NCBI GenBank assembly: GCA_014904845.1
Contig: MU119236.1
Coordinates: 3,758 to 67,757, forward strand
From: Acephala macrosclerotiorum
Lineage: Eukaryota; Ascomycota; Leotiomycetes; Helotiales; Mollisiaceae
Reading direction: 5' to 3'
DNA: 64,000 bases
The position numbers and the translations under genes were made by a program. The notes beneath the pieces were generated by a model that ran no database searches, was not told the DNA's origin, and saw only the letters and a list, made by a program, of their open reading frames with translations. Positions 250-22,898 of the stretch are shown piece after piece. Positions within the stretch are counted from its first letter, which is position 1; each line of letters starts with the position of its first letter.

Positions 250-518
250 AGTATGCCAGACAGAATAGAGGCTGTAATCCAAGCAAAAGGATGGCATACT
301 AAATACTGAGCTCAGTTTGTAGTGCAATCACAATGTAATTTAATCATCTTGTAGTCTAGCTTTAGGCCTTTCTAATGCTTCAATCAGAACTTGATTTGGA
401 CGGATAATGGTAGAGTTATTGTCAAATGAAGGGGGGAGGGTAAATGGTGGGGTGCGAAGTAAAAATGCAGTAGCGAATAATTTTTGTTTAGTACTGTAGC
501 ACTACCTTCAGTCTGACT

Positions 519-1659
519 TTGTCAAGCTCTGGATCGAGCTCATCAAGTTCCTTGTATTCCACCTCTACGAGCAAGTTGACGAGCTCATTGTCCAGCTCAA
601 CTCTGTCAAGCTCTATAGATTCATCATCTCTCTCCTCTAGTTCTATCTTAACTTTGTCTCCGAGCTCGTTCAGCCCCACATCGACTACATTTCAGTTATC
701 CTCAATGGCGGGGTTTCAGTCTTCCTCCGCTACAATCAGTCCATCTGTGCCTTTGCGAGTTATATTCGCCTCGACACTAGTATTGCCAACCGTAACGTCC
801 AGCAGGACTTCGACTAGCATGGTTGCCTGCATCCGAAACAATTGTCTGCGTCAACTCCAGAAATCATCGTTAGTGGCAGGATCGTTCTGTGCATCATACA
901 CCACGACCGTCAATTCTGCATCTACCGGTCTGCCTAACTTTGTTGACAGGTGTAACAGCATACCGGCTTCTATCTCGTCTGCGTGCTCCTGTATCCCAAC
1001 TGTCGTGGCCTCCACTGTGTCCATCTCACCTCAAACCACGATGACACAGACCACATTAGCCACGAGCACATCTCCTGTGTTATTGGCAAGCAGCTCTACT
1101 ACAGCATCGCTTCCTTCAGCAAGTGCCTGTGCCACAGGCCTGGTCAACGGCGGCTTCGAATCTGGCTCGGTCGCTCCTTGGGCTGATAATGGTGGCTTCT
1201 CATCTGCTCTCTCCGTCGGGTACTCCCCCTCCACCCACGTGGGTGCTTCAGATGGGAATTACTACATGTAAGTAGCCAAGCTCACCAGTTATATACCTCC
1301 AACTAACATCATCTAGGGAATCCACCGTAAATGACGGATCAATGGGTATCATCTCCCAGACGGTGGCTGTCTGCGCAGGTAAGACATACACGATGCAAGC
1401 GCACGCTCAAGTAGCCTCCCTCCCAGCTGCGATCGGCCACCACCACCCTCCTGGTTGCACGGTTCAAATTCGCGACTCCGTCGGAGGAAAATGTTCTAGA
1501 CCGGCCACCATCAAAGCCAATGCCTTCAACACTGTCTCGAAGACGTTCAAGGCAACGAAAACACAGAGATACGCTACGTTGCAAGTCAAGATTGAATGCC
1601 CGAACAACACAGCAGGCAATGTAAATACGGTCTATGTGGACAATATCTCTATAGGATAG
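519..1659 (+). CDS. Ser-rich secreted/cell-wall-type protein with CBM4_9-like C-terminal domain, 5' end missing
   Basis: Model join(519..1267,1317..1659). The 49-bp intron has a GTAAGT donor, CTAAC branch and TAG acceptor, and phase is kept across it. The visible protein starts in a run of about 50 residues that are mostly Ser. A Cys-containing block follows (NNCLRQLQ, SFCASYTT, SSACSC), a pattern seen in fungal extracellular proteins. The C-terminal domain begins NGGFESGSVAPW and ends VYVDNISIG, which is typical of CBM4_9-like beta-sandwiches. No ATG or signal peptide opens the frame: a TAG lies at 489-491 and the first in-frame Met is at 705. The 5' exon is therefore either upstream behind a TTTAG acceptor at 487-491 or lost near the Tc1 fragment. 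A role in binding the wall or plant polysaccharide is inference. Confidence 0.65.
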
Positions 1660-3090
1660 ACAACCGCTCTTTTAAGCAAACATTTCCTTTGATTATTTGG
1701 GGTTAGCGGGTAGATTCACGAAGTTGGATAGTGGTTTGAAGTACTGTACATACGCACAAATAGAAAGTCTTCGCAACGTTTTTGGTTTGTAATAGTATTC
1801 TCAGTTATCTTCTTCATTGTGCAAATTCTTCCCATATGAGAGTTTCATTATACCTAGGAACCATAGGATGCCCATAAACTCTATGTTGATTTTTTCTCGT
1901 GCCGGTTCCGCTTTAGTTTCTGGACGCGAGTAGCGGCCGCTTTTACCTGAGCTGAGGGTGCTCGCGTGCATGAGCAGAGCCCGAACAAAGCCTGAGCATC
2001 CTGAGCTCGCCCTGATTTGTTAACTGCTGCAGGCCCAATTTTGGCTCCGGCTACAGTTTTCTTGTCGGGTTTGCCGGGACACTCAATCTGCTCCCCTTAC
2101 AAGGTTTCTGCCAAAGCCGCTTCGAGATCCTCAATAGGAATGCCTCACATAAAGAACGTATAAAGAACTCAACAATATCGTAGAAAAGCATGCTGCGACA
2201 ACTTTTCCCATTTTGAGATAAATTTTCCTTACATAATACAGTACAGTTTGAGATCGGCTTCGGTTCAGAACCCTCAATGATTTTATTCTTGATTCATATT
2301 TGGTGCGATATTAATCCTCTATACTTCGTAGCTAGCCTAACTCCTGCCGGCAAACAAGCAGGAAAATGGCAGGCTCAACGAATACTCTTCCAACATCCGA
2401 AGACGCCCACTTTATGCCCAAGCTCTGGCGACAATACAGCAAGATAGCGTGACAAGGGCAGCAAAATGTGGGGCATTCTGCAAAGGAACGAGTCACCCTG
2501 TCCTAGACAACAACATGCAACGGCAAGGGGAAACATAGGGCTTTGAGACTTTTGGGCTGGGAGTAGAACGGCCTCGTAGCAATCAATGTGAAGTTGCCTG
2601 CACTAATGTCTCCGAAAGATCCACCGAAATGCTAGTGAGAAGAGAGCACTCGAACTTAGAGCAATAGCAGTGAGGTCATATACGAGCAAAAGGACGAACA
2701 GGCCAAACGAAGGCAATCTGAGAGATCTCAATAGCATTGTCTCATGGAACCTCCGTAACCACAACCTTCAAATTATGTGTGCATATCTTTGCCCTGTCCG
2801 CCGTAAATTTAAAGGCTATTGATACCGTATCAACGTGCTCAAACGAAATTATCATTCTGCCGTCCCACCGATATTGTACTGCCTCGGATTTCGAGGTCTC
2901 CCGTTGGATGAATATCCAAATCAACTCGCAAGCATGGCCTGACCCAATCAAATACATAGAAATTCTCAAACAAAATCCTGAAAAAATCTCGCCTTACCCA
3001 CATCCAAAGAAATTCGTAAGGCTCCATCCCTGAGCCCGCCCCTTCCCATCTCAGTACCTTATCTCGACCCACGTCATCTCAGTCGTTATA
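1660..3090. other. Intergenic, no gene recognised
   Basis: Short frames exist on both strands around 2737-3072 but overlap each other and match nothing I know. The stretch holds one cluster of CTGAGC-type words (separate entry). Confidence 0.6.
1946..2008 (+). repeat. CTGAGC-word cluster, copy 1
   Basis: About 60 bp with four CTGAG words (CCTGAGC, GCTGAGG, CCTGAGC, CCTGAGC) plus a TGAGC. It resembles the clusters at 14016-14076 and 23683-23767. Confidence 0.55.
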
Positions 3091-3642
3091 TCACATCCAT
3101 GTGTACGATAGTGGGGCAACGTCGTAAGTCAACTTGCAATGCCCGTATTTGCAACCCTCGCATAGAGCGCTCTCATGTGGACCCTTACTCGCACGATTTG
3201 TGTAAATGGGTTGTTCCATCTGTATACCACTCCACTTTTTAAGACGATATGCAATTCTATCTGCGTATGAATCATCCGGGAATGGCTGACCGAGGCTTCC
3301 ACAACCTTTGCAGCGTTGGCGATACACTCGGGCATTGTATCGTTGTTCGGGGTACATTCGTATCGTAATAGCAATCCTTTTGCTCCCCCATCCGGCTTGG
3401 CGGCAAGCTTCGTTCGAGCATTCGAAGCGTCCCATGATATTGGTATCGTATTCTTGAATAGATCCTCTGTCCTTGTCGGTTGCGAAGAAAGTAAAGAAGA
3501 GGCCGTCCTCCTCTAACAGGAGTCCCACACTATCGTGAAGTTCTGGATACATAGACCACGATTTATCCAAAGGGTGCGCTTTTGGCTTTGGTCTCCTGCG
3601 TGATATTGGCTCTCTGTGCAACTTCGATTTTGGGGACGGCAT
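3091..3642 (-). CDS. 3CxxC-type zinc-finger protein
   Basis: A single exon of 183 residues that starts at a true ATG (3640-3642). A basic N-terminus (PKSKLHREPISRRRPKPK) precedes a domain with paired cysteines: CSNEAC near residue 75, CKGC near 113 and CEGC near 160, and a final C near the end. This is the arrangement of the fungal 3CxxC zinc-ribbon family (zf-3CxxC, related to receptor-transporting proteins). The conserved FxCxNxxC...W plus QRCKxC spacing is present and the length is normal for the family. Its function in fungi is not established. The frame is intact, and no neighbour suggests a pathway. Confidence 0.85.
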   Translation of the reverse strand: MPSPKSKLHREPISRRRPKPKAHPLDKSWSMYPELHDSVGLLLEEDGLFFTFFATDKDRGSIQEYDTNIMGRFECSNEACRQAGWGSKRIAITIRMYPEQRYNARVYRQRCKGCGSLGQPFPDDSYADRIAYRLKKWSGIQMEQPIYTNRASKGPHESALCEGCKYGHCKLTYDVAPLSYTWM

Positions 3643-4630
3643 GCTGGGTCTGGCCTGTATGCGAGCTCACGATGACAGAGCTCGAGGAAGGGGTTAAACC
3701 CGTCTTTAAGCGAGCAATGAATATCGAGCCAGAAGATACGATACTAGACAAATGATTTCGACGTAGCAATCGTGTTGCCATAATAAACGGAGGATTGCTG
3801 TCTTAGATAAATACATGTCTTCTGCCCCAGCGGTTAGACCGTCAAATACGTGGTCGGCACTGGACAACTGTGACGCCTTCCAACGTTGGCGAAATTCGGC
3901 GATCGATGCCGATTATTGGAAAGATGTCTGAAAAGATGGTGTGCGCCTTCGAGCGCTGATAGGTATCCCACATCCCCTTAAAACCCCCGGAATAGCAGCT
4001 TCAACCATTGGCATAACCCCACGTAATTAGCTACCCAGATTTTTAGCTTGAAAAAATATATCATCTTCGTCTCTTGGGATTCGAGGAGGTAGGACACTAA
4101 GTACGCCTCTTCTTTCAGCTTGATAGTGGGGTCGCCTGTGAAAGTAAAAGGAATACAATTCAAGTCAATAAATAAATAAACAATTTATTTTTATTTTTAT
4201 ATTATTATATATTTAAATTTTTTAAATTTAATTAAATTATACAAATTTTTTAATTTTTATTATAATATTATTAAATATATGAATAATAAAGTAATGAAAC
4301 TCGACTTATAAGGTTATAATCTAAGGCAGTAACTAAGCATTGCACTGAGATATTAAATTTGATAGTTGCTTTTAGCGGGCCGCGCTTCGGGCGTCATTGT
4401 GACCGTAGGACAGCCTGAGCCTCACCCTCCGCGCGCACTTCCATTCTCGATTGAAGCTCAATCACCCCTTCCCCTGATCGCCTTCGCCATCACCCTAGCC
4501 CTTCTATCATGCCATAAGTCCACTCTGAAGTTCCCGATGATTTTGACAGTGGCAGTCCAGAAAGGCATCGAATGCTTCGGGATCGCAGACCTCCCACAAA
4601 TTTTCGCCCGTTGCTTCGTTATCTGCGAAC
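3643..4630. other. Intergenic with an AT-only-like tract at about 4150-4310
   Basis: About 150 bp from 4155 is almost pure A/T, far from the balanced composition on either side. This resembles RIP-degraded or spacer DNA. No terminal repeats were found. The 3643-3781 part is probably the promoter of the 3CxxC gene. Confidence 0.6.
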
Positions 4631-5612
4631 ATGGCACCACCGAACGAGGTAGCTACAGCTGCAGCAGATGAAGCAGCAGACGCACCCCGACATCTCCGTC
4701 CTTCGAAAGAAAATATGGCCGAGTCAACACCATACATGGAGTACACGTCCGTCCTTCTATCCCCGATCAGAACTAACATCGTCCAGTGGAATCGGCACCG
4801 AAATGGTCGACATCTACGTTGGCCCCTCCAAAAAACTCTTCCGGCTCTACAAAGCAAAACTCTGCAGCCGCATCCCCTATTTCGACAGAATGTTCAATGG
4901 TAACTTGAAAAAGGTATCGCACAATGTGGCGTATCTTGAAGAAGACGATCCTGCGTCCTTTGATTTGCTGGCCGATTGGGTGAATTATCCAACGACTTCG
5001 AAATCTTCGAGACGGATTCGGGAGTTGACAACGGTGAAGCATAAGGAGGGGAATGAGGAGGCCAGTTGGGACCCGGTGGGATTTTACAGTCTGGCGGAGA
5101 AGTATTGTTTGCCAGAGCTGCAGGATGCCATTATGGATGCGCTTGTTCAGTATCATACGGAGCAGAACGAGCTTCCTTCCGTGAACTTCGTTTTCCGAGC
5201 CTACGAGCATACCTCGGCAGGATCACCTTTGGCGAGATACTGCGCGGAAAGCATTCTCTATGTGATGGACGAAGGCGGTGAAGATGACAGATGGCCTGCT
5301 AAAGAAGTTGCACGTTTGTTCCGGGAACTACCTACCTTTGCCTCTGAATACATTGCTGTGCAGAGAAAAAAGGGAGGCAAAGGTAGAGGTGTTGATCCAA
5401 GGGACACCATTCGATGTTATTTCCATGCCCATGATCGTGGGGAGCCCCGTCCTGGAAATCCCAACAAGAGGAAGAGTCCGGAAGGCGCAAAGTCGAATGG
5501 GAACAAACGGCCGCGTGTGGTCGAATTCAGTAATCTCGACGTACTACAAGATTTTGACTTTGATGCCTTTCTCCACCACGATGACCACAGGGAGATGACT
5601 CTGAATTCTTAA
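4631..5612 (+). CDS. BTB/POZ-domain protein
   Basis: Model join(4631..4740,4787..5612), 311 residues. A 46-bp intron with GTACAC donor, CTAAC branch and CAG acceptor joins the ATG exon to the BTB frame in phase. The BTB fold starts near residue 40 with VDIYVGPSKKLFRLYK, then AKLCSRIPYFDRMFNG, then LEEDDPASFDLLADWVNY. This is the usual fungal BTB core, in which the first strand, the hydrophobic helix and the acidic ED-P-FxLL segment mediate dimerisation or Cul3 binding. The tail is basic and lysine/arginine-rich (NPNKRKSPEG, NKRPRVVEF), a plausible nuclear signal, and ends in an acidic stretch. Fungal BTB proteins of this size are mostly uncharacterised, and no partner domain is present. Confidence 0.85.
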
Positions 5613-14185: not shown

Positions 14186-17100
14186 TCATCTCAACGCAGC
14201 ACGCAGATACTGAAGTCGGCCAGCCCCAACGTCTGTCTCTGATAATCTTGCATTTGAAAACGTTAAGTTTGCTAAGTCCTTCTTCCGGTCCTGGATCTTG
14301 ACAACATTCTATAAAACAAGTCAGCAACAACCCTAGGACAAGCACCAACGAAAACACAACCTCTTCGAATGAATTTAGCATTCTATATCGTATTGTCGTT
14401 ACATTCCTCTTCTGGCCGAGACGATACACGCGACATAATGCCTGCTCTTCCATTTGTGGATTCCATTGTGGCTCCATCAAGTATGCACGGGATGCGGCTG
14501 TGAGATCCAACCTAGTGAGTGTTAATTTCAAAAATACTTGGCATTTCAAGCTGTAGACTCACCCAGCCCCACCACAAGTAATAGAAACCAAGATGACGCG
14601 GACGCCATCCGTTGTTTGAAATCTTCGTATAGCATCTGCTCTTTTATCAGGGGACAATTGCCCATCAACCCTTGTGAAGCGAATGGAGGCCCTATTTAGC
14701 ACACATTCAATGAGATCCAGCGTAAAGGTCCAGTAAGAAAAGATGGCACTGGAGCAAACCATCATTAGAAAAGCTATGGAAATCGTCACCTGAGGGGAGT
14801 TAACATACCTTTTCTCCGTTTTAAATTCCTTTAGATTTTGAAGAAGAGCTTTCAGTTTTGTTGGCGTAGAATCTGGACTCATAGTAATTCTAGGATTTAA
14901 GATTTGAGGGCGGGAAGATTCAACCAAGGAGACTTCAAAAGTTGGGCATTTCGGATGGTGTGCGCACGGTGATTTCCCGGAAAGTGCTGAAGCCTTCGAA
15001 GCGCAAGAGCAACAGAGAACAAACAGACATTGGGATAGATGAGCGTGGATAGGTGACTGACTCCCATTGTCCAAGCATTCGACATTCCCTTCTGGTGAGC
15101 CTTCCGAGGTTGTGTCAGCAAGGTTAGCAGTACAAGCGACACACATGGCTGCACCGGCATCGATCATACTGTCAAACGCTTTCTGAGCGGTAATATTGTC
15201 CCAAGTATTGGGCACATCACCGTCAGTATTCAAGTCATCGAAGCTCTCTTGTTTTCCAGCGACCACACCATGGTTGCAGATGAGCCTTAGCTTGTTTAAC
15301 CACCCCAATGCGTTCAGATATAATCCTTTTTGAGTGAACTCTTCGGACATCGCATTTTCAAGCATGCCAACAGTGAAAGCCCGAGCAGAATTATACAAGT
15401 CTTGCTCAGCGGCAGTGAAGGTCAAACGATGAATCTCATCGGTACGGCTTGGAAGGTTGATAGCAGTCCTTGGCCTACACAAAGTGATCGAGTTGACCAA
15501 TTTCTTAAGTCGCAGAAGGCCTTGTTGGTCTGATTCTTGCCAGGGTTGGGAAATCTCGATATTGAAGGTTTCCGGATCCGAAAAAGGGAACACTTTGAGG
15601 AATTCAATTATACTGGCCAGATCGGTAAGCTTGTTTTGAATGGGTGTTCCGGTAATTGCCCATCGATTAGAAGCGCAGAGAGCACAGACTGATTTTGCTT
15701 TTGAAGTACCTCTGTTCCGGATTATATGTGCTGCTAGCAGTTAGCAGCGTAATATCAGTGCTCTACCCTCGCTTACGTACCTTCATCCAGGATCACTCGA
15801 TGCCATGTAACAGAATAGATTGTCTCTTCTACTGAATTTGACTTATGGAATTTTTTCAGTTGTGCTGCAATTGTTTCGTACGTTGTGAGGACAATGTCAT
15901 ATTCTGAAAGCACATCAATCGAGGGCTTGACCGGGCCATGGTAAGTATACCATGCCATTGCACCAGGCCGCAGATGTCTACTAAAATCAGCGATGGCTAT
16001 AATGAAAAGCAATCGACTAACTTTTGTAACTGGCTGTGCCACATCTCTAACACTGTACAGGTCAGATTTGCTTCAACTATTCAGAGGGTAGAGAACTTAC
16101 AACTAAGTGGGGCAATAATTAGAGTTGTTTTAATAGATCGTCGTGAAGTTATTAGAACATTTTCGTTCTGTATCTCGGGCTCTTTTTGGTTGAGAGCAAT
16201 TAGTGCTATCATGGTGAGGGTTTTCCCAAGTCCCATTTCATCAGCCAAAAGTCCTCCTCTGAAGTCTGGAGGAGGCGCCGATTGCGTTTCTCCGGTGATA
16301 GTATTAACATATCTATTATAAAGTCAGTAATTCGATGAATTGAACGAGGTGTACAGCATACAGTAACCGGCCATTACCGCGCACCTCCCTGGCCCATATG
16401 TCGCTTCCTGGGGAATCAAATGCCCACCCCAATTCTCTTCGCGACATAAATTTCAGTGCTTGTTTTTGATGTCTTTGTAAAATTAGCAAGAACTTACAAA
16501 ATTTAAGGGAAGATCCTACCGAAAGAGGGGGGTTTCTATTGCCATTGGGGTCTCGGCTTCTTCGATATTATCTTCGTTCCTCAAAACTGCAAATAAATCA
16601 ATCTGAGAGGTGACATTCCCAACGAGACAAGTGATGCTTTCGGGAGTGATTGATGCTGTGGTGATTGGCTCTTCTTCTTGGCTGCAAAGCATATGTGGAT
16701 TCATATATTTCACGTCACGATCGCAATGAAACGGGTCTTGAAGGTACATCTGGCACTCCTGAAAGAACTCGCCAACATCTTCAAAAGCTTCGATGACTCC
16801 ATAGAATATGACACAGAGGAAGATCCTAGCTGGGTGTTTCTTTCCACAATCATCAGCCTTTCCCTGGGTTTTCTCGTCTTGAATCTCTACAGTACAGTAG
16901 GATTGGGTCGATGCGAGATTCATGTCTTTGAGGGCATGGAAGATCTTGGAATATTTGGGCCGTATTGTGCCAAACCTCTGGCATGTATCCAGTCGAAGCA
17001 GTTGATTTGATTGGTCTAGCCGAACATGAATTATCGGAACTTGTGGATACCGAGTGTCCCCTAATAGGACAGGGATATTAGATACCTATATTGAAGTCAG

Positions 17101-18147: not shown

Positions 18148-21100
18148 ATGGCGGCCTCAGACAAATTAGCATCTATCGACATGGCTTTCATGAAGCTGAA
18201 ACAATCTGTCAATCCAATTGACGCTGTCACTTTTCAATCCACTACGCTCGAAGATGTTTGGAAGGCAGCACTTGCTATACAACAACGCCAGCGCGAAAGT
18301 AAATCTATGATGAACATGCGACGGGTTGAGCCTTTCTTAAAAGCCCTTGAAAAGTACTCCAAGTCAATAGAAATTCTTTGCAATGGGACACCGTATTTAC
18401 CATGGATATGGGTAAGTCTCAAAATGAACTTTCAGAATAATCACCCAAGACAGCTAATAACAATCCTTGGAACTCAGGCGCCCATCAAATTACTGTTGGA
18501 GGTCGGCGCTTATTAGTTTTGATCGAGGGCGCACTGACTAAATGTTGACAGCTAGCCAGTGCTCATGCAAACATCTTCGAAAAACTACTTAATGCGTACG
18601 CTCAAATCGCTGAATCGATGCCGCGTTTTGATCGGCTTCAGAAGACCTTCCAGGACCATCCCGATTTTCAGAGAGTTTTAGTCATGGTCTACTCTGATAT
18701 ACTCGAATTCCACACTCGTGCCTACCAACTTTTCAGACGACGAGGTTTGAATCATACGCAAGGTTGAGAAGAGCTAGTAGTGTTGCTAACTTGAAGTTAG
18801 TATGGCATGTTGTGTTTGACTCGTTATGGAAAAATTTCGACTCGCGATTCTCAGGAATCCTAGAAAGCCTTTCCCGTCACAGAGATCTGATAGATAAAGA
18901 GGCTTCGTCCATTAATATAGCAGAGGCACGAAGCGCGCGAATCCGTGCAGAAGAAGATATTGCTCGACGTGAGAAAGAGAGGCAAAACTATCAACTCCAA
19001 GATTCTATAACTTGGCTTGGCATCACCAATGACGAACAACAGGAAATCATAGAAAAATTGCTTCGAAGACGGCAGCCTGGAACCGGTGAATGGCTTCTCC
19101 AAAATCCGCAAATAATGTCATGGACCAGTGATAGCAGGAGGCATCCGATCATTTGGCTCAAAGGCATTCCAGGAGCTGGTAAGACAGCACTTCACCGCTA
19201 TTCCTCACAAGAAATTATGCTAAACTTTCAATAAACAGGAAAGAGCGTCTTGTGTGTACATTTGATCGAAGCCCTCAAAGTGGACCAGAATTATTCATTG
19301 ATCTACTACTTCTGTGATAGCACCACTAATAGCAAAGACATCTGTGCTCAGATCTTGAAGAGTTTAATTCTTCAGCTACTACAGGCCAATGTCGAATTAG
19401 CATCTCACGTCGCTGATAAATATGCCTCCTCACGGCCTACCGCGACTCTTGCCCAGGTACGAAAGGTTCTGCCAGAACTCATCGAAACTATACCAGCAAC
19501 GCGCATTATTATCGACGGTCTGGATGAGTATGGAATAGTAGACCAGAAGTCAATTCTCAATGAACTCTTGCTTCTGATGAAACTCTCTGGGGATAGATGT
19601 AAGCTCTTGGTCTCGAGCAGGGAAAATGCTTGCATACAGAGGCTCCTCGGAAAGAAGCCAACCATTTTCCTAAGCGAACATGATCAACGAGCTAGCATCG
19701 ACATCGATATTCGACTGCGTGTTCATGAAGAGCTAATGGCACTCCGAGAAAGGTTTGATCCTGCCGTCATCGACGAGGTCGAGCAAATTCTTGTAAAAAA
19801 AGCGAGTGGTAAGCACGGTAGTCTACCTAAAAACTATCTTGATTAATCTGTTGGTGGTTTTTAGGTATGTTCCTTTATGTGAGACTGGTTCTTGCAGAGC
19901 TTGAAGGTCGGTACTCTGTAAAGGATCTGTTTGAAGCTGCACAGAGCCTCCCAGAAGGCCTGGACGAAGCGTGAGCTATTTAAAATGACTTCTTTGTATG
20001 GCTTTGCTGACTATGAAATGAAGATACGGAAGAATTCTACAACGTATCAACAAATCAAACGATTTCAGCCGCCGGACATCCGTCAGAATTCTGAAGTGGA
20101 TGGCATGTTCATTTCGCAAGCTCAAACCCTTTGAATTGCAAGATGGATTGGCCTTCTACCCCGGAAATACTGTCCTCGACGATACTACGAAGTTATCCAT
20201 TCAGATTTTAGACCAATGCAAACCGTTGATTGAGCAAGGGCCGTCGGGTGCCATTGACTTTGTTCATTTTTCGGCAAAGGAGTATGTGTCCCCCGTTCTG
20301 TGGAGGCAATTATTTGCAATACTAACGTGTGGATGAAAGATATATTCTGCACCCTGGTAGTGGGCCTTACCTAAAAGAATGTCACGCTCACTTTGACATG
20401 GCCTTCTCATGTGTTTCGTATTTATCGTCTAGTATTTGCCTTATATCGCCTTCAATGACGGATTTTGAGGCTGAAAATCGCATCATCAAAGGCTACCATG
20501 GATTACACAGGTACGCTCACGAATTTTGGATCGATCACCTCCTTCGATTCAGTCTTTCGAAATTGTGTGACTCGCCCGCAGACACAGAAGCACTTGTTCA
20601 GCAAGTAGGCTATCTCAGCCAATCACAGAGGCCTCTGCCACATCTTTATGACACCCCAATGGCCAATAGCAATGAGGTTCACTCAGGATCCCATGAACAC
20701 TTACCATCCTGGTCCCAGTTTCCAAATATCCAGCAGTTTTTGGAGAAAATCTTAGTATTCCGGAAGCGATTGGAACAAGAGAGGTCCAGCATGAATTCAC
20801 TGGAAGGCAAGTGGAACAAAAACCGTGAATTTTGTTTGAACCTACTAATATTCTCAAGAATTGGAGCGCCTTGAGCTCGAAATGGATCCAACAAGCTTAA
20901 CTCAGCTCTCGAACTGTTATACGAGTATTTCAGGATACCTTCTTAATGGCTCTGATCTCTTCCACCAGCATGATTCTAGGATCCTTCAAAGCTTCAAAGA
21001 TATTTACGGGACATCGGGATACCCGTGTCGATATCAGTGCAAAGGAGGAGTCAATGGCTTTGTGTCGATCGAAGAACGAGATCAGCATGAAGCATCTTAT

Positions 21101-22441
21101 CATATCAGGGTCTACAGGTGCGGAGACATGTCCTGTGATCTCTCTGTTCGTGGTTTCAACACGAAAGCTGCCCTGAAAAGCCACACTAGACTGTACCATG
21201 CCAAAGCGACAAACGAACCTGCACCGATTCTTCGAAAGAAAAAGGCAATGCAACTCAAGAAGGCTCTCTTAGAGAAGGATGATTTTGAAGCCGCCGGTAA
21301 TGCCTTGGCTGAATTGGATCTTGAACGTCAGCCAGAACACCAAAAGCATGTCGGGTCGGATTGGTTTGCTATCTTCAACCCAAAAGTTCCCCGTGTGCTT
21401 GACGTTGACCTTGTTCACACTCTTCAACACCAAAGTGTCGTTTACTGTGTCAGCTTCAGCTATGACGGAAAATATATTGCTACTGGCTGCGACAAAGTCG
21501 CACAGATCTTCGATGTTGTCACTGGACAAAAGATTTGTATCCTCGAGGATGAATCAGTTGATCCTGTGAGTCATAATTATATCAGAAGTGCTTGCTTCAG
21601 TCCTAATGGAAGATATCTTGCTACTGGTGGGGAAGATAAATTGATTAGAGTGAGTAATGATATTGATTTCTACGTGCTATTACTAACGATTACAGGTTTG
21701 GGACATTGCTTCTAGAAGCATCAGAAGCACCTTCGTCGGTCACGAGCAATATATTTACTCCTTGGACTTCGCACGCGACGGTCGTACTATTGCTTCAGGG
21801 AGTAGTGATGGAACCGTTCGTCTTTGGGACATTGAGACTAGTCAAAATGTTCTTATTCTTAGTATTGAAGATGGTGTCACTGCTGTTGCCTTTTCTCCAG
21901 ATACTAAGTACGTCGCAGCTGGGTCTCTAGACAAGAGTGTTCGAGTCTGGGATGTTGTCAGCGGATACGTCGTTGAGCATTTTGAGGGCCCTGATGGACA
22001 TAAGGGCTCCGTACGCTCCGTCGCTTTCGCACCCAACGGCAAGTATCTCGTGTCTGGTAGTTTTGATAAGACGATAAAGATGTGGGAGCTTGCTACCCCA
22101 AGAGGTGGACGCTTCAACAACGCTCCTGAAGGCGGTCGCTGTATTAAGACCTTCGAGGGCCACAAGGTGAATCATCTCCCGAACTCCTACTTTTTTTCAT
22201 TAACATAAATCAGGATTGGGTTCTCTCCACCGCTTTTACGCCCGATGGAAATTGGGTTCTCTCCGGCTCTGAGGATTGTGAAGTCCAGTTCTGGGATTTA
22301 CAAACGGGCAACACGCAACTCAGGTTACGAGGCCACAAGCACATCGTTACCAGCGTTGCGGCGAGCCCAAGCGGGGGTTGCTTCGCGACGGGCGGTTTAG
22401 ATTTCCAGGCGAAGATCTGGAGCTATAAACCTTACCCGTGA
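18148..22441 (+). CDS. NACHT NTPase - C2H2 - Tup1-like WD40 fusion (STAND/NLR-like)
   Basis: Eleven exons: 18148-18411, 18478-18501, 18552-18744, 18801-19178, 19239-19808, 19865-19970, 20024-20281, 20340-20806, 20859-21649, 21696-22166, 22214-22441. They total 3750 nt and 1249 residues, with every junction in phase and no stop. The N-terminal helical region (1-200) resembles fungal STAND effector/adaptor segments. NACHT has Walker A GIPGAGKS (282-289, split by an intron) and Walker [10 protein letters not shown] (375-383), followed by [12 protein letters not shown] and the winged-helix-like [10 protein letters not shown]. Cys/His finger pairs ([31 protein letters not shown]) lie at 808-867. 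From about 903 the protein reads as Tup1/Rco[78 protein letters not shown], giving seven blades to 1249. HET-E/D-type NLRs instead carry near-identical WD repeats. It likely works as a cytosolic or nuclear signalling NTPase whose sensor is a Tup1 mimic (inference). Two splice sites are non-standard: donor GTCGGC at 18502 and a GC-AG intron at 20807. Confidence 0.88.
20807..20858 (+). other. GC-AG intron joining the NACHT and zinc-finger/WD40 parts
   Basis: The donor is AAG|GCAAGT, the canonical GC-donor context. The branch is CTAAT and the acceptor CAAG. It is the only junction found that keeps phase between residue 753 and the ELERLELE block; GT donors nearby give stops. Confidence 0.7.
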
Positions 22442-22633: not shown

Positions 22634-22898
22634 TATCCGTTACGCTGCCATCAGGATTGCACCTCATCGCTAAATCTCGCCCGATTTGCGACGCTTACTA
22701 ATCGCAATATAATTGTATAAAATCCCTATTGCTTAGTGTAATGATCTATTGGGTTTTATATTTTAATTGTATCCATTTCGCATTAAATTTTATTAATATT
22801 TGCTCGATCGAAGAAGGTTGAAGTAGGTGAGTTGGGGGAGTTTTGATGTTCCCGCCAAAATTAGGCGAGGTGCAATCCTGATGGCAGCGTAACGGATA
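22634..22898. mobile_element. MITE with 32-bp perfect terminal inverted repeats
   Basis: The left end 22634-22665 and right end 22867-22898 are exact reverse complements, starting TATCCGTTACGCTGCC. The interior (about 200 bp) is AT-rich and non-coding. The outer TA on both ends fits a TA target duplication of Tc1/mariner-type elements. It sits about 190 bp past the NACHT-Tup1 stop codon. Confidence 0.9.

Follow-up and report, generated by a model that had tools for sequence, protein, structure and literature searches.

The 64,000-nucleotide stretch of Acephala macrosclerotiorum DNA analysed here (hereafter the window; contig MU119236.1 of assembly GCA_014904845.1, positions 3,758 to 67,757) carries on its forward strand, at 18148-22441, a gene that joins a DUF7708 domain, a NACHT NTPase and two C2H2-like fingers to the WD40 propeller of the corepressor Tup1. 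The propeller part was copied at the DNA level from the 3' region of a TUP1 gene, its reading frame has been held under constraint, a relative with the same fusion is found in Sclerotinia nivalis, and the pattern of a NACHT gene ending in a piece of another gene is repeated among sister genes of the same genome. With moderate confidence, we read the gene as encoding a receptor akin to the NOD-like receptors (NLRs), from a DUF7708-NACHT-C2H2 subfamily, in which the captured Tup1 propeller would serve as a C-terminal integrated sensor. As in fungal NLRs (STAND receptors, signal transduction ATPases with numerous domains), the protein has a central NACHT NTPase and C-terminal superstructure-forming repeats, here seven WD40 stretches.

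The original prediction, made from the letters alone, had proposed eleven exons in one stop-free frame of 1249 residues, and this is borne out by the splice model, which has no internal stop and one terminal stop, and by a colinear protein of S. nivalis. The latter (OCU04_004825, P0022; 1248 residues) aligns with the window protein over its full length with one 1-residue gap, so that a frame open by chance, or a misassembled joint, is very unlikely. Identity between the two is 89.5% over residues 1-247, 87.7% over 248-410 and 89.1% over 411-760, followed by 79.1% over 761-899, 67.4% over 900-945 and 71.0% over 946-1249. The joint between the fingers and the Tup1 part falls within a single open exon (exon 9) and recurs in the S. 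nivalis protein, so that both a gene-model error merging two genes and an assembly misjoin at this gene were rejected. Nine of the ten introns are of the GT-AG type (46-66 nt), and intron 8 is GC-AG (20807-20858, 52 nt), its donor having been picked to match the S. nivalis protein gap-free. The frame would likewise stay open with a GT-AG intron of 34 nt (20825-20858) or with other GT-AG sites. Among the best 120 rows in each of two protein searches there was no full-length entry for this gene from its own genome, and it may be missing from the deposited annotation or divided there.

Origin of the propeller from TUP1

The lead-in and seven-blade propeller (residues 900-1249; 21296..22441, plus strand, two introns included) had been assigned to Tup1 rather than to the HET type, and the structural match, the blade identities, the tree and the alignment with TUP1 all uphold this. 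The best PDB match was yeast Tup1 (1erj), with a single 334-bit domain covering residues 4-348 of the 350; the runner-up WD40 protein was a sum of five partial domains, each of at most 97 bits. Identity between blades has a mean of 0.33 and a maximum of 0.49, whereas WD repeats of the HET-E/HNWD type share at least 85% internal identity (PMC4986451).

A normal TUP1, which the original prediction had suggested looking for elsewhere in the genome, was found on contig C43, where it encodes 593 residues including Tup_N (E 1.5e-18). The window propeller is identical to it at 277 of 350 positions with no indel, both propeller introns are common to the two genes, and homology starts in each at GNALAELDL; from the common introns and the common starting point it follows that the copying of this 3' region of a TUP1 took place at the level of DNA. 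The separate host gene of origin by which integrated-domain NLRs are recognised is therefore still present. A retrocopy was rejected because both introns are retained, relocation of the genome's only TUP1 because of the full gene on C43, and a recent duplication because dS (synonymous substitutions per site) is ~2.2 and saturated. Tup_N gave no match at E<=1 in residues 1-899 of the window protein, in line with the proposed absence of the Tup1 N-terminal region. Compared with the Tup1/RcoA/Rco-1 corepressors, the protein keeps the complete C-terminal propeller, its lead-in and two intron positions, whereas NACHT and fingers replace Tup_N and the Q/P-rich linker, and the propeller has evolved much faster. 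Nonsynonymous change (dN) between the window propeller and the C43 gene is 0.126 against the saturated dS of 2.2, and differences at the three codon positions number 53/37/173. On the propeller tree the window tip measures 0.25 and the stem shared with S. nivalis 0.12, while the tip of the genome's own TUP1 measures 0.008.

That tree comprised 48 rows (40 of the 120 canonical matches listed, the own TUP1 and seven fusions), hand-picked for spread like those of the NACHT tree below; it held no canonical Dothideomycete Tup1, none being named among the matches listed, and HET-type repeats were left out. The tree check suggested at the outset is thus answered in one part, as the propeller sits among Tup1 proteins, and its placement relative to HET-type repeats lies outside this tree. 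The window copy groups with that of S. nivalis in a single clade (100/98), which in the best tree lies within Leotiomycete Tup1 (98/93 for a starred set of 13 rows). Very long branches lead to the five other fused propellers. In topology tests, whose groups were named after the trees had been seen and of which several were tried, a practice that the test's own note warns of, holding canonical Leotiomycetes together without the fusions was rejected (p 0.0175), making all canonical Tup1 a bipartition of their own gave p 0.047, and grouping the window and S. nivalis copies with Monilinia/Sclerotinia and Rutstroemia Tup1 was rejected (p 0.030). Because of this last result, the S. nivalis copy seemingly did not arise by vertical descent within the Sclerotiniaceae, and transfer may have occurred. 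Residues 1-760 are 88-90% identical across families (Mollisiaceae versus Sclerotiniaceae), which together with the propeller's non-grouping with Sclerotiniaceae Tup1 points to possible horizontal transfer. The source branch of the window propeller, as placed here, is a provisional one, as is any count of captures.

Captured tails in sister genes and in other fungi

A search of the genome with residues 1-899 led us to eight further loci, weaker matches lying outside this set. C2H2-like fingers follow NACHT in six of them (C40, C73, C8, C83, C326 and C150), and C84 and C365 have tails that look ankyrin-like by eye. With the window counted, the tail is a piece of another gene in four of the seven finger-bearing NACHT loci examined, a count confined to loci of that kind. 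Longer, non-NACHT copies of the source genes of all four tails lie elsewhere in the genome, and we infer that these are the donors, since they are complete or longer genes.

The sister gene on C40 (C40:173000-181000, 648-5250) has PLU-1 (E 1.7e-72) in frame with its fingers, followed by a PHD-like stretch (E 0.071). A second copy of this tail lies on C322, in a gene for a KDM5-type demethylase with JmjC, C5HC2 and PLU-1; the two are identical at 223 of 287 positions with 11 gap columns (dN 0.144, dS 1.085), and in both the frame breaks after HEW, at a matching position. A PDB search with the PLU-1 fragment returned no matches. On C73 the sister gene (462-4084) matches a Q-rich gene on C12 at 66 of 90 residues (dN 0.167, dS 0.924), and its frame stops inside the copied segment. 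The C8 gene, on the minus strand, has pieces of the same C12 gene in its finger frame, different from the piece on C73, and the frame that follows, which we assume to belong to the same transcript, aligns with the N-terminal portion of a bHLH gene on C15, 84 of 109 residues being identical (dN 0.115, dS 0.420). Pfam found no family in the C12 Q-rich gene, which may be a Med15/Gal11-like coactivator. For the C83 tail there was no strong second copy, the best other match in the genome being 50% over 48 residues (E 1.4e-5), and on C326 and C150 the finger frames, by reading, end fewer than 30 residues after the last finger.

Three of the captured tails are recognisable as nuclear by family (TUP1, KDM5 and bHLH). 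Rough pairwise dN/dS estimates for the four tails, that of the window included, against their longer copies are 0.06, 0.13, 0.18 and 0.28; a drifting captured copy would be expected to show ~0.5 or more, and as all four values are lower, the tails seem to be retained by selection. An assembly misjoin could still account for the sister genes on C40, C73 and C8, which, unlike the window gene, are seen in one species only.

Relatives in other fungi were examined as the best 120 of 163 matches to residues 1-925. Six of these 120 have a Tup1-like tail (E<=2e-34): S. nivalis (72% over 347 residues), the Dothideomycetes Clohesyomyces aquaticus (42% over 353), Trypethelium eluteriae (48% over 277), Bathelium mastoideum (32% over 318) and T. 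subeluteriae (36% over 204, with only the later blades aligned), and the Xylobotryomycete Cirrosporium novae-zelandiae (28% over 346). NACHT with a Tup1-like tail, for which a domain-architecture search had been proposed, thus occurs beyond this locus. Three more listed relatives gave weak WD40 matches only (E 9e-6 to 8e-4). A pattern set for the W..IFNP-type lead-in was matched by the five fusions outside Sclerotinia, and the DWSVTFNP of S. nivalis does not match it. Tails of other listed relatives include Myb and a bromodomain with FHA, and matches to WW and PHD both fell under their cut-offs. Within the NACHT-C2H2 group, P0143, P0152 and others have a Myb-like tail domain, and P0151 is the protein with bromodomain and FHA.

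In the NACHT tree (46 of the 120 listed matches plus the window, 47 rows), a quick tree with the Shimodaira-Hasegawa-like approximate likelihood ratio test (SH-aLRT) only and no mixture model, the fused proteins are spread over three positions, with the Leotiomycete pair at one, Cirrosporium by itself at another and at the third a Dothideomycete group that also holds two unfused rows. In tests with groups likewise named after the tree had been seen, a single clade of fused NACHT parts was rejected, both for all seven (p 9e-7) and for the six without Cirrosporium (p 2e-67). This scatter of the fused NACHT parts favours repeated capture of Tup1, at least twice; many losses, or a single origin of the propeller, could also produce the pattern.

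Possible roles of the captured propeller

Published precedents for putative integrated decoys in fungal NLRs are nine Sordariales T-NACHT NLRs with C-terminal CHK-2-derived kinase domains (PMC12258605). Here as there, a NACHT receptor ends in a presumed copy of a conserved host protein that is also encoded by a gene of its own, whereas the present case differs in its corepressor donor, in having several donors in one subfamily and genome, in the C2H2-like fingers that precede the tail and in the taxa concerned. Tup1 itself is named as a structural analogue in a paper on fungal NACHT proteins (PMC1805685). The HET-E/HET-D and HNWD NLRs of Podospora likewise combine NACHT with a C-terminal WD40 propeller, and the ligand-face change in one lineage is a further likeness; in contrast to them, the window protein has seven dissimilar Tup1 blades, an N-terminal DUF7708, and no HET domain among the 17 Pfam families found at E<=1 in residues 1-899. 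In plants, NLRs with integrated domains (NLR-IDs) carry HMA, WRKY and kinase domains. By analogy, the copy of a host protein fused to a receptor and the several donors per receptor class would be shared with the plant NLR-IDs, whereas NACHT is used here in place of NB-ARC/LRR, and effector binding is putative here. In the titles and abstract openings of the open literature covered, which leaves preprints and most subscription journals outside, a NACHT-Tup1 fusion is not named.

On the reading that we prefer, the captured propeller would act as an integrated bait or sensor. Some agent directed at Tup1, such as a mycovirus, an antagonist of bacterial or fungal origin or a partner in an incompatible pairing, would bind or alter it, after which NACHT would oligomerise in a step driven by nucleoside triphosphate (as NLR biology suggests) and the N-terminal DUF7708 part would trigger a defence or cell-death output; the fingers may hold the protein near chromatin. 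A bait for agents that attack host regulators would explain why the tails are copies of different host proteins. We put forward more tentatively, as a possibility on the doubtful side, that the DUF7708-NACHT-C2H2 subfamily repeatedly swaps in pieces of nuclear regulators as rotating baits, with Tup1 (probably in at least two lineages), KDM5, the Q-rich protein twice and bHLH as donors, joined elsewhere among the fungi by Myb, bromodomain/FHA and perhaps PHD; this would imply unrecognised mycoviral, bacterial or fungal antagonists of the transcription and chromatin machinery of fungi. For fungal NLRs active outside allorecognition, a sensor recognisable as the copy of a known hub protein of the host would name the receptor's candidate target, and the KDM5, Q-rich and bHLH pieces of the sister genes would extend this to a directly testable list of proteins predicted to be attacked.

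We marked 21 predicted ligand-face positions of the propeller by applying the sequence rule of PMC3419727 to the motifs; the count was not blind, as the positions had been eyed beforehand, and gaps were scored as differences. Across 41 canonical Tup1 proteins 18 of the 21 positions are invariant, and the 40 others differ from the genome's own TUP1 at 0-2 face positions each, despite up to 84 differences over the 350 residues. In the window copy 11 of 21 face positions are changed, compared with 62 of the 329 remaining positions (Fisher p 0.001). Of the two lineages, that of Acephala has thus rewritten the predicted ligand face, and that of S. nivalis has largely retained it. Acephala changes at positions mapped to residues that fission-yeast Tup11 requires, by experiment, to bind Fep1 (PMC3419727) include Y225R, K295E and I321T (ligand-face numbering). 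The change may be likened in spirit to the selected WD residues of HET-E, which have been discussed in relation to a propeller platform (PMC1805685).

Several points weigh against the integrated-sensor reading and the capture history proposed with it. The S. nivalis copy shows no excess of change at the predicted face (4 of 21 positions, 95 of 329 elsewhere, p 0.46), the heavily changed Acephala face counts against a faithful mimic of Tup1, and a bait that has lost much of this face might no longer draw Tup1 binders. Placement of the fusions outside Leotiomycetes and Sordariomycetes was not rejected (p 0.211), nor was a single origin of all seven fused propellers when the propeller data were taken alone (p 0.205). 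The sister-gene count is confined to finger-bearing loci, as said above, and the name DUF7708 was not found in the open literature covered.

If the protein were instead a NACHT-controlled transcriptional regulator, its fingers would bind DNA or chromatin, its propeller would recruit or compete for Tup1 partners, and its nucleotide state would switch repression. The fingers do adjoin a corepressor domain, nuclear themes recur in the sister tails (PLU-1) and in other species (Myb, bromodomain and FHA, with PHD under its cut-off), and most of the predicted face is retained in S. nivalis. Yet with Tup_N absent there is no Ssn6/tetramer module, the Acephala positions mapped to the Fep1-binding residues of Tup11 are changed (PMC3419727), and C2H2 fingers occur in 34 NLRs of the Sordariales survey (PMC12258605) and so need not mark a regulator; we hold such a role to be possible but unlikely. 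The rewritten Acephala face, set against the 18 invariant positions of 41 canonical Tup1 proteins, together with the precedent of HET-E/D (PMC9815663, PMC1805685), would also suit an allorecognition (heterokaryon incompatibility) receptor, in which the propeller is a new WD40 sensor diversified for polymorphic self proteins and unrelated to Tup1 function. However, its blades are not the near-identical repeats of the HET type (maximum 0.49, against the 85% of PMC4986451), and a generic WD40 sensor does not predict that sister genes captured non-repeat proteins; we hold this role to be possible but less probable still. We rank last, at about the same level, the view that the family acquires gene parts by duplication and that the tails are functionless or only stabilise the protein ends. 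DNA-level copies with their introns, tails that differ between sister genes, the C73 frame that stops inside its copied segment and the fast Acephala propeller would all be in keeping with such chance fusions, but not 350 codons free of indels and stops at saturated dS, nor a joint retained in S. nivalis.

Exons, upstream domains and neighbouring features

All exons of the gene are on the plus strand. Exon 1, with the start ATG, spans 18148..18411 and is colinear with P0022; exons 2 (18478..18501) and 3 (18552..18744) lead to exon 4 (18801..19178), which ends within the P-loop region, and exon 5 (19239..19808) holds the NACHT core. Exons 6 (19865..19970) and 7 (20024..20281) precede exon 8 (20340..20806), whose splice site at the GC-AG intron was set by the S. 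nivalis protein. Exon 9 (20859..21649) contains both the fingers and the start of the Tup1 part, exon 10 (21696..22166) carries Tup1 blades, and exon 11 (22214..22441) the last blades and the stop; the introns before exons 10 and 11 are positioned as in TUP1.

The domain before NACHT, in a correction to the original prediction, is DUF7708 (PF24809, E 1.2e-14; residues 61-201, 18328..18922, introns included). The NACHT/NPHP3_N NTPase follows at residues 254-414 (19079..19621, intron included; PF24883 E 1.1e-34, PF05729 E 6.2e-9), with the P-loop GIPGAGKS at residue 282; the nucleotide coordinates of both domains were derived by hand from the exon table. The C2H2 fingers that had been proposed hold as a spacing pattern (residues 810-835 and 841-867; 21026..21199), but no Pfam C2H2 model matched residues 1-899 at E<=1. 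In the same residues, a weak match to a Sina zinc finger (808-868, E 0.0087) and a winged-helix match both fell under their cut-offs.

Over the whole window, Rfam at gathering scores gave no matches. Directly past the gene, at 22634-22898, lies a 265-bp element with perfect 32-bp terminal inverted repeats, resembling a miniature inverted-repeat transposable element (MITE), which is matched at nine further genomic positions, 97% identity being reached at two of these. Elsewhere in the window, open frames on the minus strand resemble, by eye, an SNF2-type helicase (14562-15740) and the start of a cytochrome P450 (41335-42234).

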